DNA from: Anaerolineae bacterium
GTDB taxonomy: Bacteria; Chloroflexota; Anaerolineae; 4572-78; NAK82
DNA length: 5,195 nucleotides
NCBI GenBank assembly: GCA_030597485.1
Contig: JAUVRU010000200.1
Location: forward strand, 1 to 5,195
Direction of reading: 5' to 3'
A program made the position numbers and the translations under genes. Positions within the stretch are counted from its first letter, which is position 1. The number at the start of each line of letters is the position of its first letter. Shown one piece after another: positions 863-4,942 of the stretch. The notes beneath the pieces are model-generated. The model was not told the origin of the DNA. It worked only from the letters and a program-made list of their open reading frames with translations, and made no database searches.

Positions 863-864
863 AT

Positions 865-870
865 GGAGGA
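865..870 (+). promoter_or_regulatory. Ribosome binding site deciding the start of the binding-protein gene
   Basis: GGAGGA lies 4 bases before the ATG at 875. An in-frame ATG at 863 overlaps this site and has no Shine-Dalgarno sequence of its own, so 875 is the better start. It also gives a normal signal-peptide N-terminus (MTNPKNRSVSRRDF). Confidence 0.8.
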
Positions 871-874
871 GACT

Positions 875-2320
875 ATGACTAACCCAAAGAATCGTTCTGT
901 TTCCCGTCGAGATTTCATGAAACTGACCGCGGCCGGTGTTGCCGCAGCAGGGGTAGGTTCAGTCCTGGCAGCCTGCGGCGCGCAGCCGGCCCCTACTGAG
1001 GCCCCTGCTGCCACTCAGGCTGCCACCGCTGCGCCTACCGAAGCTCCCAAGGCAGGGGAGACGCTCAAGTGTTGGTGGTGGGGCGAGCAAGAGGCCCCTG
1101 GCGTAGAGAACTGGATAAATGAGACCGTTGCCATGTTCAAGGAGGAGACGGGCCATACCATTGAAACCACGCTGCAAGACACCGGGGTCGTCATCTCTGA
1201 GTTTCAGACCGCCTCGGCGGCCAACAGCGCGCCCGACATCCAGTTCGTGTGGAATGGGGTCTACCAGATGGAGGCCGCCTGGCTGGGTTACTTCGAACCG
1301 CTGGATGGGCTGATCGATGCCAAGATGCTGGAGGATGCATCCCCCACTTGCATGAACCAGTACGAGGGCAAGACATACAGCACCGCCTGGTATTCCTGCG
1401 GCATCGCGTGCGCGTATAACAAAGAGATGTTCGACAAGGCTGGCCTGGACCCGGAAAAGGCGCCCGAGACATTTGAGGAGTTGATGGACACCTGCGACAA
1501 GCTCAAATCCCTGGACGTCATACCCATGTCTGCCGGAATGAAGGATACCTTCTGGAGCGAGTGGTACCACGGTCACGCCTTGTCCCCCAACCTCGACACG
1601 CCTGCCGACGCGCTGAAACTGTATGCGGGGGAGGGGCTGGATTGGCGCGACCCGCGATACTACGATGTGTGGACCAAGTTGGGCGAGATATGGAACGCCG
1701 GGAATATCAACGACGACATGCTCTCCATTGACCTCTATCCTGCCATCGATCTTTTCGGCACGGGCAAAGCCGCCATGACGTGGTTGGTTGTGCCCCTGCT
1801 AAATGCGCAGAAGGAAATGCTGGGTGGAGAGATCATGGGCGTGTTCCCGTATCCCATGAGCGGCCAGGGCAAGCTGAATAACTGGCCGGTTCTGGACACC
1901 AATGGATGGGGCATCTCCGCTCAGAGTGAGAAGAAAGACATTGCCGTCGAGTTCCTCAAGTTCATGCAGCGACCGGAGCGTATCACCGCGGTCTGGGACT
2001 CTTCCAAGGCGCTGCCCACCACCAAGTCATGGCCCGGTGGAGAGGTGATCAAGGATCCCTGGTGGCTTGATGTATGGGAGAAATACATACACGGGCCGAC
2101 GGCGCAGTATGTGCCCGACATGATGCCCGGTCTGTTCTGGAGCGACGCCAACCTGGTCAACGCGCAGAAGACTATCACTGGTGAGCTGAGTCCCGAGGAG
2201 TGCGGCGAGAATGCCTACCAGGTGGTCCAGAAATGGCGGGAGCAAAGCCCAGACATGCTGGAGAAATACGCGCTCTGGGCGGAAAGCATGGAAAAGGTCT
2301 GGAACGAGAAATATGTTTAG
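875..2320 (+). CDS. Sugar ABC transporter solute-binding lipoprotein (MalE-like, CUT1 type)
   Basis: This 481-residue protein should capture a sugar or oligosaccharide outside the membrane and pass it to the two permeases encoded next. The N-terminus has a twin-arginine motif SRRDFMK (residues 10-16), a hydrophobic Ala/Gly stretch (18-33) and a lipobox LAAC with the lipidated Cys at 34. This suggests Tat export followed by lipid anchoring. Residues 35-61 form a low-complexity Ala/Pro/Thr/Glu linker. The binding domain starts near residue 63 (LKCWWWGEQ) and runs to the end. It is rich in Trp and Tyr, as in sugar binders, with the family-type PDIQFVW stretch early on and GWGISAQSEKKDIAVEFLKF in the second lobe. 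The length is usual for the family. It is the first confident gene of the operon. The substrate cannot be read from sequence; alpha- or beta-glucosides, polyols and uronides all remain possible. Confidence 0.93.
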   Translation: MTNPKNRSVSRRDFMKLTAAGVAAAGVGSVLAACGAQPAPTEAPAATQAATAAPTEAPKAGETLKCWWWGEQEAPGVENWINETVAMFKEETGHTIETTLQDTGVVISEFQTASAANSAPDIQFVWNGVYQMEAAWLGYFEPLDGLIDAKMLEDASPTCMNQYEGKTYSTAWYSCGIACAYNKEMFDKAGLDPEKAPETFEELMDTCDKLKSLDVIPMSAGMKDTFWSEWYHGHALSPNLDTPADALKLYAGEGLDWRDPRYYDVWTKLGEIWNAGNINDDMLSIDLYPAIDLFGTGKAAMTWLVVPLLNAQKEMLGGEIMGVFPYPMSGQGKLNNWPVLDTNGWGISAQSEKKDIAVEFLKFMQRPERITAVWDSSKALPTTKSWPGGEVIKDPWWLDVWEKYIHGPTAQYVPDMMPGLFWSDANLVNAQKTITGELSPEECGENAYQVVQKWREQSPDMLEKYALWAESMEKVWNEKYV

Positions 2321-2333
2321 TCCCTGAGGACTA
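2318..2333 (+). repeat. Small hairpin containing the binding-protein stop codon
   Basis: TAGTCC (2318-2323) and GGACTA (2328-2333) pair perfectly around the 4-base loop CTGA. The TAG stop codon forms the base of the stem. No T-run follows, so it is not a normal intrinsic terminator. It may help define the 3' end of the processed binding-protein message. Confidence 0.5.
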
Positions 2334-2353
2334 GGCGTTCGGCAACAGTGTCG

Positions 2354-2392
2354 GCGAGTCAGCGCATCAGGCCAGAAGCTGCGCTGACTCGC
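2354..2392 (+). repeat. Strong intercistronic stem-loop between binding-protein and permease genes
   Basis: GCGAGTCAGCGCA (2354-2366) and TGCGCTGACTCGC (2380-2392) form a perfect 13-bp stem with a 13-base loop; a G-T wobble at 2353/2393 could extend it. Only a short, mixed sequence follows, not a T-run. It therefore looks like an mRNA-stabilising or attenuating hairpin of the malE-malF kind, which raises binding-protein output over permease output. A factor-dependent or leaky terminator is the alternative. Confidence 0.75.
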
Positions 2393-2459
2393 TCACTCGT
2401 TTGACGCTGGCAGTCGAACGCTATCGAGAACGACAAGAAAACCGGAGGCTCCTCACGGC

Positions 2460-3338
2460 ATGCTCCGTACCAAGCGTTTTACACCCTATCTGTTTGTCGC
2501 GCCAATGTGGGCGTTGTTGCTTTTTGTGTTTGGGTACCCCATAGTACAGATTTTTAACTTCAGCACGCGCAGAATTCGCGGTGCCACCGGCCCCTTCATT
2601 GGCCTGGAAAACTATCGGCAGATATTCACAGACGACATTTTTATTCTGTCGGTCAAGCACAACGCCATGTTGTTGCTGGCCGTGCCGATCTTGATTGTCA
2701 TCGCTCTCGTGATTGCCGTGTTTTTGTACGAGCGAGTGACCGGCTGGCGCTTCTATCGTTTCCTTTTCTTCGTCCCGTACGTGATTGCCATTCCGGTAAT
2801 CGGCCATGTGTTTAGCAACCTGCTCTCCTTGAACGGTGCGGTCAACGAGCTACTCCGCTCCATCGGACTGGGCGTGTTGGCATTGGACTGGCTGGGCAGC
2901 GAAAAAGTCGCCTTATGGACGCTGATGGGCGTTATCATCTGGCGCGAGGCGGGTTTCGGAATCGTGCTCTTCCTGGCCCGGCTGCTCAGCTTGAACGAGG
3001 AATTGCTGGATGCCGGCAAGATCGATGGCGCCAACTGGTTGCAGCGCCTGTGGTACATCATCGTCCCGGAGCTGATGGGCGTGATCGAGTTCTACGCGGT
3101 GATATGCGTCATCACCATGGCGGCCTGGGTGTTTGGGTTTGTCTTTGTCATGACGCATGGCGGGCCAGCCAACGCCACCCAGGTAATGGAGCTGTACATC
3201 TGGAAGTACGCTTTCAGAATCCAGCTGCCGGGGATCGCCTCAGCTGTAGCCGTGATCCTGTTCTTGATCACCCTGGCGGCCATGGTCCCCCTGTTTTACT
3301 TGCGATACAAGGATGAGGGCACGGAGGCAAGCGCATGA
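2460..3338 (+). CDS. Sugar ABC transporter permease, MalF-like
   Basis: This 292-residue inner-membrane protein is one half of the translocation pore. Hydrophobic segments fall near residues 11-31, 69-91, 98-122, 150-172, 205-231 and 258-280, the six-helix pattern of short MalF-type permeases. The periplasmic stretch FIGLENYRQIF (46-56) is characteristic of the family. The cytoplasmic EAA loop, which docks on the ATPase, is at about 180-205: EELLDAGKIDGANWLQRLW followed by the conserved Pro at 203. GGAGG at 2444-2448 sits 11 bases before the ATG, a slightly long spacing that may moderate translation. It lies 139 bases after the binding-protein gene, with two hairpins in between. Its stop overlaps the next start, so the two permeases are probably translationally coupled. 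I see no damage. Confidence 0.93.
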   Translation: MLRTKRFTPYLFVAPMWALLLFVFGYPIVQIFNFSTRRIRGATGPFIGLENYRQIFTDDIFILSVKHNAMLLLAVPILIVIALVIAVFLYERVTGWRFYRFLFFVPYVIAIPVIGHVFSNLLSLNGAVNELLRSIGLGVLALDWLGSEKVALWTLMGVIIWREAGFGIVLFLARLLSLNEELLDAGKIDGANWLQRLWYIIVPELMGVIEFYAVICVITMAAWVFGFVFVMTHGGPANATQVMELYIWKYAFRIQLPGIASAVAVILFLITLAAMVPLFYLRYKDEGTEASA

Positions 3339-4216
3339 GCATGGAGAGCAGCTCAGCTAGAACCGAGGACCAACAATGGCAGGACACCGGGCTGCGCCGG
3401 GATAGGACAGCATTCGCCAAGCAGATCCCGCTCATTCTGTTGGCGCTGGCGATTCTCTTTCCGGGTTATTTTATGCTGATCACGCCCTTCAAGACCCAGC
3501 TTGACTACTCAATCAGCAAGCTGGGTCTCCCCACACAGTTCTATTTGGGCAGTTTCGAGACGGCGCTGCGCGGCGGACGATTCTTCTTGTGGCTTGTCAA
3601 TAGTATCATCATGGCCGTGGGGTCCGTAGTCGTTGCGTCGGTCGTCTCGGCACTGGGAGCCTTCGCCCTGGCCCGCATGAGTTTCCGGGGACGGGCTGCA
3701 ATGCTCACCCTGAACGCCGCGCTAATGGTTTTGCCGCCGGTGGTCCTGATCATCCCCATCTTCCTTCTCTACGCCAGGCTCAAGATGACCAGTACCTATT
3801 CGGGCGTCATACTGGTCTATGCCGGGCTGATCACGCCCTTCGCGGTCTATATGCTCACCAACTTCTTCAAATCCATTCCACACGAGATCATAGAATCGGC
3901 GTTGATCGACGGCGCTTCTTCGGTTGGCATCCTGCTGCGGATCATACTGCCGCTCTCCGCCCCGGCCTTGGTGACGATGATCGTGGTAAGCGCGCTGTGG
4001 GTGTGGAATGATCTGCTCATCGCGTTGGTGCTGCTGCCGGATGACAAGCTGCGCTCGCTGATGGTGGGAATCACCCTCTTCGGCGGTCGCTATAGCAACG
4101 ATGTGCCCGTGGCCATAGCCGGTATGCTGATGGCCAGCCTCCCTATGTTCATCTTATACATGGTGGGTCAGAGATACTTCGCTCACGGCCTGACGGCCGG
4201 CGCGATCAAGGGCTAG
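3335..4216 (+). CDS. Sugar ABC transporter permease, MalG-like
   Basis: This 293-residue protein is the second pore subunit. After a polar N-terminal tail of about 27 residues come hydrophobic segments near 29-50, 85-110, 120-143, 150-172, 208-230 and 260-282. The EAA loop at 184-207 is canonical (EIIESALIDGASSVGILLR, then ILPL). The C-terminus QRYFAHGLTAGAIKG is the conserved MalG ending, so the protein is complete. The start ATG shares an ATGA overlap with the upstream permease stop. GGAGG at 3323-3327, inside that gene, is 7 bases from it, which favours 3335 over the in-frame ATG at 3341. No ATP-binding subunit follows, so the importer must use an ATPase encoded elsewhere, as multitask MsmX/MalK-type ATPases allow in many CUT1 systems. 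Confidence 0.94.
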   Translation: MSMESSSARTEDQQWQDTGLRRDRTAFAKQIPLILLALAILFPGYFMLITPFKTQLDYSISKLGLPTQFYLGSFETALRGGRFFLWLVNSIIMAVGSVVVASVVSALGAFALARMSFRGRAAMLTLNAALMVLPPVVLIIPIFLLYARLKMTSTYSGVILVYAGLITPFAVYMLTNFFKSIPHEIIESALIDGASSVGILLRIILPLSAPALVTMIVVSALWVWNDLLIALVLLPDDKLRSLMVGITLFGGRYSNDVPVAIAGMLMASLPMFILYMVGQRYFAHGLTAGAIKG

Positions 4217-4300: not shown

Positions 4301-4376
4301 CAGAGTGACATCCATCAGGTGGGCAAAGCACCCTCTGGGTCCTGGTGCGGTGCCTGCATCAACAACAATACCCCCG

Positions 4377-4434
4377 TGTCAATATTCGCACGTGAATGTA
4401 CCAGTCATATTCGGCTAAGATGTACCACCCCGGC
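4377..4434 (+). repeat. Terminal repeat array, istB-side end of the IS21 derivative
   Basis: Three direct units read inward: TGTCAATATTC (from 4377), TGTACCAGTCATATTC (from 4397) and TGTACCACCCCGGC (from 4421). The last two are 24 bp apart. Multiple short repeats at each end, bound by the transposase, are a known feature of IS21 elements. Confidence 0.65.
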
Positions 4435-4492
4435 CGGTGTTGGGTAACGAATCTCGATGCGATGGGACTGGACGGGATGGTGTCAATCAGAG

Positions 4493-4657
4493 TCAGCCAG
4501 GCTGTTCGATAGGCATTTCCTGCAGGAGACGATGGCGACCCTGAGCCCGGAAGCTGGAGCTGGTGATGATCAGAACCTCGGCGTGATGGGTCAGGCGATC
4601 TAGCCCGGCAGAGGCGAGCAATGGATCACCGACTGCGGCAGTGCTGCACCCTTCGTC
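4493..4657 (-). pseudogene. istB: IS21 ATP-binding helper IstB, C-terminal remnant
   Basis: The last ~45 residues of this frame contain GDPLLASAGLDRLTHHAEVL and then SSSFRAQGR, ending at a TGA at 4495-4493. This matches the C-terminal end of IstB, where a GD-x-x-x-A-x-A-x-x-DRLxHHAxV block is followed by a S-[FY]-R motif. IstB is the AAA+ helper ATPase that selects targets for IS21 transposition; Walker A and B and the rest of the protein are absent here. The clear match starts near 4630, and residues encoded up to 4657 (DEGCST) may be a worn extension of the preceding block. The frame extends upstream to an ATG at 4825 only by chance, through istA-derived and end sequence. Confidence 0.75.
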
Positions 4658-4736
4658 GGTCCACCGCCGTCGCCCGCTGCACACCGCGATCGCTGGGGGT
4701 GTTTCGCATATGTTGCAGCAATTCTCGGATGTCCAT
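4626..4736 (-). pseudogene. istA: IS21 transposase IstA, N-terminal remnant
   Basis: The frame starts at an ATG at 4736-4734 with a purine-rich AGGAAAAAG just upstream and gives 36 residues before a TGA at 4628-4626. It begins MDIRELLQHMRNTPSDRG and continues VQRATAVDRRRVQ. This has the layout of the IstA N-terminus: a short start, then a helix-turn-helix with the SDR...ATxVDRRxV pattern that binds the IS ends. Similarity fades after about residue 31-33 (near 4640), where the istB remnant takes over in another frame. The whole DDE catalytic core is missing, so no transposase activity is possible. If translated, the peptide could in principle still contact DNA as a mini-repressor, but that is speculation. 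Confidence 0.65.
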
Positions 4737-4817
4737 AGCGTTCTTTTTCCTGCCAGACATTGCCCCTGCTCACACCCCTTGAGATGGCAGGGAATACATT
4801 CATTCACCTGAGGTTCC

Positions 4818-4831
4818 GCCAACACGTTGGC
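4818..4831 (+). repeat. Short palindrome inside the IS21 derivative
   Basis: GCCAACACGTTGGC has perfect 6-base arms around a 2-base centre. It lies between the innermost terminal repeat and the istA remnant, where a promoter or operator for istA would be expected. Its function is unknown; it could be a regulatory site or simply a chance palindrome. Confidence 0.35.
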
Positions 4832-4844
4832 ACCTCTTCGCTGG

Positions 4845-4905
4845 GCAGGAGTGGTACACTATGGGTGAATGCGACTGGTACAGCCAGGTGAATATCCCCA
4901 GTACA
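4845..4905 (-). repeat. Terminal repeat array, istA-side end of the IS21 derivative
   Basis: Read on the - strand there are three units: TGTACTGGGGATATTCACC (from 4905), TGTACCAGTCGCATTCACC (from 4882) and TGTACCACTCCTGCC (from 4858), spaced 23 and 24 bp. Units two and three match the other end at 29 of 39 aligned positions by hand count. Confidence 0.65.
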
Positions 4906-4942
4906 TTGTCGTCGGAATGGTGACACCCCGAACGTTGGAATA

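Follow-up and report, generated by a model that had tools for sequence, protein, structure and literature searches.

A collapsed IS21-family element that keeps both termini in an Anaerolineae genome, and its probable status as a relic

The locus and the ends of the element

The DNA analysed here (the window, 5,195 nucleotides from the metagenome-assembled genome, or MAG, of an Anaerolineae bacterium) starts with the C-terminal end of a 2-oxoacid dehydrogenase acyltransferase (1-107; PF00198, E 1.5e-10). A 206-codon open frame at 211-831 has no Pfam match and may be no gene. Positions 863-4216 encode a sugar-type ABC transporter, which Pfam resolves into a Tat-type solute-binding protein and two permeases. 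The collapsed IS21 element that is the subject of this report lies 160 bp past the second permease and 33 bp ahead of the next start codon (4959). By consensus, no promoter-like or terminator-like site was recognized between 4217 and 5000, and Rfam gave no match in the window. An empty insertion site was not found, as the loci in two genomes of the same family (G004 and G005) have the permease and lack the downstream gene.

Sequence inspection, alignment to an intact 2599-bp relative and terminal alignment with shuffled controls delimit an internally deleted IS21-family element of 549 bp at 4377-4925, with TGTCA...TGACA tips and with the istA-to-istB direction on the minus strand. The istB-side terminus (4377-4427, plus strand) has a TGTCA tip and copies of TGTACCA at element positions 21 and 45 (4397-4403 and 4421-4427), a spacing also seen in the intact relative in genome G002 and in a second remnant in the same MAG (L002, see below). 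The istA-side terminus (4852-4925, minus strand) also has a TGTCA tip, with repeats 21, 44 and 68 positions from it, the first of them altered to TGTACTG. The arrangement is the same in G002, where repeats are found at 21 and 45 on the istB side and at 21, 45 (TGCACCA) and 69 on the istA side. The 549-bp element and the intact relative therefore agree in the spacing of two TGTACCA-type repeats at the istB end and three at the istA end, and the TGTACCA core is kept in four of the five, the outermost istA-side repeat being the altered one.

The first-pass annotation had placed the element at 4377-4905 and had described its ends as of the TGTACC type. The left limit stands, and the right one moves to 4925, given that position 4905 falls within the outermost repeat and the true tip is 20 bases beyond. 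Repeats of the TGTACCA type are indeed present and common to the intact relative, but they are internal, 20 bp inward of each tip, and the actual tips are TGTCA/TGACA.

When the two ends of the element were aligned with each other, the score of 46 was reached by none of 2000 base shuffles and by none of the 630 other 549-bp segments of the window. An inverted repeat was also picked up blind, pairing 4389-4435 with 4844-4890 at 72% complementarity. The pentamer CCCCG abuts both tips exactly (4372-4376 on the left and 4926-4930 on the right) and is annotated as a 5-bp target-site duplication; five flanking bases would agree by chance about once in 1000 cases, and more often in a C-rich stretch. 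Target-site duplications in the IS21 family are 4-8 bp long. For three Paracoccus IS21 elements the duplication is apparently 7-8 bp in the available part of the source (PMC3281130). Of the features that mark the family, the 549-bp element has the terminal inverted repeats composed of at least two repeated units and a short duplication on both sides, and IstA and IstB are present as remnants only, IstB by its match to PF01695 and IstA by pairwise match. With tips, terminal repeats and CCCCG flanks all in place, the earlier proposal that both ends are kept is borne out.

Gene remnants, deletion joint and drift

The istA 5' remnant (4633-4760, minus strand) covers IstA residues 1 to about 35 and was identified by tblastn, by BLASTP and by a search of its own genome with intact IstA. 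Its ATG is at 4760 (MSGRKKNAMDIRELLQHMRNTPSDRGVQRATAVDRRRVQHCRS, MSGRKKNA...), with the MDIRELL start at 4736, and the frame from the MSGR..MDIREL start is open for about 44 codons. In tblastn, positions 4736-4632 of the minus strand match residues 3-37 of P0001, i.e., IstA residues 1-35 of the intact relative (63%, E 8e-8), and pairwise BLASTP against the metagenomic IstA P0129 gives 27 of 34 residues (E 2e-16). With intact IstA as query, the MAG gives no IstA match other than this remnant (E 4.9e-7). The piece includes most of HTH-1, which in the solved structure of an IS21-family IstA comprises residues 1-39, according to the portion of that report available (PMC10122671). Probably owing to its shortness, the 43-residue piece matched none of the IS21 profiles of Pfam and NCBIfam, and its assignment thus rests on the pairwise matches and the own-genome search.

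The istB 3' remnant (4493-4633, minus strand) consists of the last 46 codons plus the stop and spans IstB residues 211-256. It matches PF01695 over profile positions 201-235 of 238 (E 4.2e-6; 26.9 bits, cut-off 24.1), shares 43 of 46 residues with the metagenomic IstB P0053, and in tblastn aligns at 4633-4505 with residues 211-253 of the intact relative (65%, E 5e-11). The profile comparison that had been proposed as a check on both peptides therefore succeeded for IstB; for IstA it found no profile, yet the pairwise matches hold.

The two tblastn matches meet, in different frames, at 4632-4633, where istA codon ~35 adjoins istB codon ~211; the joint is placed to within a few bases. Relative to the intact element about 2.05 kb is absent (2599 minus 549 bp). 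These results confirm the initial description of an IS21 element collapsed to about 0.5 kb, in which an IstA-like N-terminus on the minus strand is followed, in another frame, by an IstB-like C-terminus, the start of istA being fused to the end of istB near 4633. That no long frame survives was roughly right, but a 110-codon frame (4493-4825) crosses the joint in the IstB frame.

Drift was scored against 121 listed IstA and 121 listed IstB relatives, including the G002 queries; among the IstB relatives P0003 repeats the query and a few proteins are shorter than full length. In the IstA piece, Tyr33, present in all 121 relatives, is Cys, Thr29 (117 of 121) is Arg and Gly24 (101 of 121) is Ala. 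In the IstB piece a Gly found in 121 of 121 relatives has become Ser, and a Val found in 105 has become Met.

The same MAG has a one-ended IS21 remnant on contig C52 (L002:1501-1755) that comprises an istB-side end and an IstB tail, 92% identical to those of the window. Its break is at IstB residue 212, no more than about ten bases from the joint in the window, and at six IstB positions it has a residue that occurs in at most one of the 121 listed relatives. Judged from these substitutions, both the window element and L002 look like drifted remnants. Where istB was once encoded the two differ at 18 of 135 bases, and outside that part at 7 of 116 (Fisher p 0.06), a weak hint that the element ends may have been kept better than the rest.

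We considered whether L002 could be a second copy of the 549-bp derivative and rejected this. Past its break, L002 shows no similarity above shuffles to the istA part of the window (the score was reached by 138 of 500 in local and 33 of 200 in anchored alignment) and no clear similarity to intact istB (35 of 200 shuffles). The L002 locus also has no 25-base istA-side tip when up to five changes are allowed.

Repeated sequences often mis-assemble. Given that the MAG is fragmented into 545 contigs, two parts of a full IS21 copy could have been brought together by an assembly or binning artefact. We regard this as very unlikely, given that the sequences at the joint share nothing beyond a base or two (as judged by the diverged relative), the flanking repeat is intact, and both pieces are changed at conserved residues, which argues against assembly from an intact copy. 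Those changes bear also on the idea that the remnant encodes a functional short peptide, an IstA HTH-1 of about 44 residues that would bind the ends of IS21 and repress full copies. The istA frame is open over about that length and covers most of HTH-1, but the loss of the invariant Tyr33 and of Thr29, together with the presence of one copy, makes such a role extremely improbable.

Intact relatives, further copies and mobility

The intact relative (L020:1434-4032 in G002, a genome of the same family) has istA and istB and the same tips, and its products reach NCBIfam NF033546 at 278 bits (cut-off 160) and NF038214 at 255 bits (cut-off 200). The full-length parent-type element with the same ends that the first-pass annotation had called for was thus found, in a related genome. 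G002 is almost surely CP070811.1, Anaerolineales bacterium isolate bin12, whose end pattern lies at the same position. In the species-genome collection the istB-side end pattern occurs in one record, the intact bin12 copy (the window's own record was possibly left out). Closer full-length relatives exist among public metagenome proteins, namely P0053 for IstB and P0129 for IstA. The longest contig listed for each is 2777 bp, about one element long, and perhaps the two come from one element. A further IS21 relative is present in three copies in G053, one of which (L022) is flanked, outside the TGTCA/TGACA tips, by the 5-bp repeat AATGT; at another, L021, no flanking 5-bp repeat is visible.

The 549-bp derivative is present once in its own MAG, which is 71.65% complete in 545 contigs, so that further copies or a full parent may be missed. 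The further copies of about 530 bp that were to be sought in the host and its relatives did not appear, as no other match covering the 549 bp was found in 200 relatives or in 400 genomes of the phylum (these sets overlap, and the MAG itself is in both). The element had no plasmid match, its istB-side end pattern was absent from the viral contigs searched, and neither IstB P0053 nor P0250, used as queries against viral contigs, led to a confirmed relative. Used as a query, the 110-residue frame that crosses the joint retrieved 60 short proteins among 65 candidates, with alignments that begin at query residue 44 or later. None of the 60 clearly carries an istA-derived part; the best score to that part, from a nine-residue stretch in P0278, was reached by 17 of 2000 shuffles.

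The pattern TGTACCA-N17-TGTACCA matched 36 of 396 genomes, and a backward control pattern also matched 22, so many of the single matches are due to chance. Among the places listed, the window holds the only convergent pair less than 1 kb apart, and three pairs about 2.7 kb apart are in G053. The survey undercounts, given that 10 of 38 places are listed for G094 and 10 of 11 for G086, and that a short derivative in G030 (described below) was missed as a pair. The istA-side tip matched four of 396 genomes; the match in G050 sits inside an unrelated gene and looks like chance.

Most likely, with a probability of roughly 0.83, 4377-4925 is an IS21-family copy that kept both termini and the 5-bp flank, lost about 2.05 kb by one non-homologous deletion and is now an immobile relic. 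In this scenario a full copy would have inserted first (or the element may already have been shortened), duplicating CCCCG, one deletion would then have removed the catalytic and ATPase parts, and the remnants of istA and istB would have drifted since.

The element had been proposed instead to be a non-autonomous, MITE-like derivative that was or is mobilised in trans by a full IS21 copy. The structural part of that proposal holds: the copy has a single large internal deletion, retains its two termini, the five terminal repeat positions and the 5-bp flanking repeat, and has an intact relative whose ends are the same; as in a MITE, the ends of a full IS are present and a transposase is not. Given that neither enzyme is encoded, movement would be possible only if the IstA and IstB of a full copy acted on the ends. 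Public protein data contain many relatives of the parent (5827 IstB with E up to 1e-20 and 7493 IstA with E up to 1e-50, from 7999 scored candidates in each case), a 401-bp both-tipped derivative is found in G030, and low copy number alone is no bar, as MITEPye1 occurs at 1-3 per chromosome in the text available (PMC11578231). With the core kept in four of five repeats, mobilisation in trans could still take place, but there is no sign that it has occurred. The part of the proposal that concerns MITE behaviour has so far found no support: several copies, or proof that the short unit moved, were found neither in the MAG nor in the genomes searched, both the 549-bp and the G030 derivatives are present once per genome, the other genomes, viral contigs and plasmids searched gave no covering match, and no short protein clearly has the istA-derived part. 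In addition, the MAG has no further IstA, the outermost istA-side repeat is altered, the remnants have drifted and folding is not above that of shuffles (z -0.69; 26 of 100 shuffles fold as well). The incomplete MAG and the rarity of MITEPye1 mean that a single copy lowers the MITE claim without excluding it, and we consider it unlikely.

The 549-bp element has counterparts in the class. We examined 34 loci, 33 with IstB-tail matches or fetched for them, plus L002. IstB matches from near its N-terminus in 14, one has no IstB match, and in two, the window and L099 (G279), an IstB tail follows IstA directly. In the remaining 17 the match to IstB begins no earlier than residue 82; seven of these are at 41% identity or less, so that their IstB start is no safe break, and one is cut by a contig end. 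L099:1495-2252 (contig C37) is an internally deleted IS21 copy in which IstA 3-196 adjoins IstB 186-253. At L104:1062-1580 (G295, contig C196), which belongs to the 17, the deletion lies inside istB, leaving a 173-codon frame that lacks roughly residues 30-117 and with it the usual ATP-binding loop region, and the upstream IstA is interrupted by a stop. L002 and L080 (G209) keep only the istB-side end and the IstB tail, with breaks at IstB 212 and 206.

The 401-bp derivative in G030 (L078:1372-1772; contig C55:4064-4464), also among the 17, resembles the 549-bp element in its TGTCA...TGACA tips, in repeats that begin 20 bp inward of the tips, in its IstB tail and in being a single copy in its genome by DNA search. 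On its left side repeats lie at 21 (TGTATCA), 45 and 69, and on its right side one good repeat is present, at 21. Unlike the 549-bp element, it breaks at IstB 194 (IstB 194-254 remain), has no recognisable IstA and lacks a flanking repeat. Different breakpoints, together with single copies in the cases tested by DNA (the window and G030), point to repeated independent collapse, and from these sequences we read the collapsed copies in the class as recurrent independent relics with no amplified IS21 MITE family.

Among the 60 short proteins, 25 join the IstB tail to other sequence, and nine of these break at residues 206-221. We do not accept this as a breakpoint hot spot, given that the query required the IstB tail, that three of the nine proteins have one N-part in common and two more another, and that old remnants shrink towards the detection limit. 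Three diverged metagenome proteins of 61-68 residues (P0250, P0264 and P0287) have in common an N-part like DPRRRHYEVF joined to the IstB tail at residue 209, and in P0283 a transposase-type HTH is joined to it at 208; these joins reflect either one common chimera or recurrent joining at a single point. Among the matches listed from a search of 346 class genomes with P0250, none covers its first four residues, and P0264 had no plasmid match. In P0266 and P0267 a second type of N-part (..SDSNP[IF]HAEVL..) continues into an IstB tail of the subtype seen in the window; this may be another derivative, present in at least two contigs.

A broader scheme would have IS21 copies of Anaerolineae collapse repeatedly to short both-ended forms by a specific route (e.g., interrupted repair after excision) that keeps the last 45-60 IstB codons and about 255-310 bp of the istB side, some of these forms, including the 549-bp one, having been transferred in trans to other sites as IS21 MITEs. 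We consider this scheme quite improbable.

Comparison with known elements

The locus documents IS21 decay in Anaerolineae with exact ends, a target duplication, a joint and an intact relative, and collapsed IS21 copies are not confined to one lineage. Should the short forms prove to move, they could serve as a naturally occurring mini-IS21 with which to test the terminal repeats that IstA and IstB require. For now, the 549-bp element is chiefly a caution for annotation. In the portions available of the open-licence literature, including PMC9208149, PMC9330008 and PMC5756416, we found no description of a natural IS21-derived MITE, which is no proof of absence.

Known bacterial MITEs offer a comparison, here as described in the available parts of the reports. 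MITEPsy1 is probably derived from ISPsy2, MITEPsy3 was probably moved by ISPsy25, and MITEPye1 has the ends of the IS1182 family (PMC3189936, PMC6053426, PMC11578231). Like the 549-bp element, all three are short, encode no transposase and have the terminal inverted repeats of a full IS, and MITEPsy1 and MITEPye1 have direct repeats, comparable to CCCCG (PMC3189936, PMC6053426, PMC11578231). Both MITEPsy elements, MITEPsy1 with 100 bp and MITEPsy3 with 102 bp, are much shorter than 549 bp and present in multiple copies, and movement of MITEPsy1 was observed (PMC3189936, PMC6053426); MITEPye1 recurs in several strains (PMC11578231). The element in the window differs from all three in its length of 549 bp, in having been seen once and in its coding remnants.

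Compared with the IS21 family itself, the 549-bp element lacks the ~2.05 kb that include the DDE catalytic domain and the ATPase core. Its ends have multiple terminal repeats, as do L1/L2 and R1/R2 of IS21 in the parts of the sources available (PMC11208146, PMC10122671), and, in common with elements such as IS21 and IS5376, it retains IstA and IstB, here as remnants.
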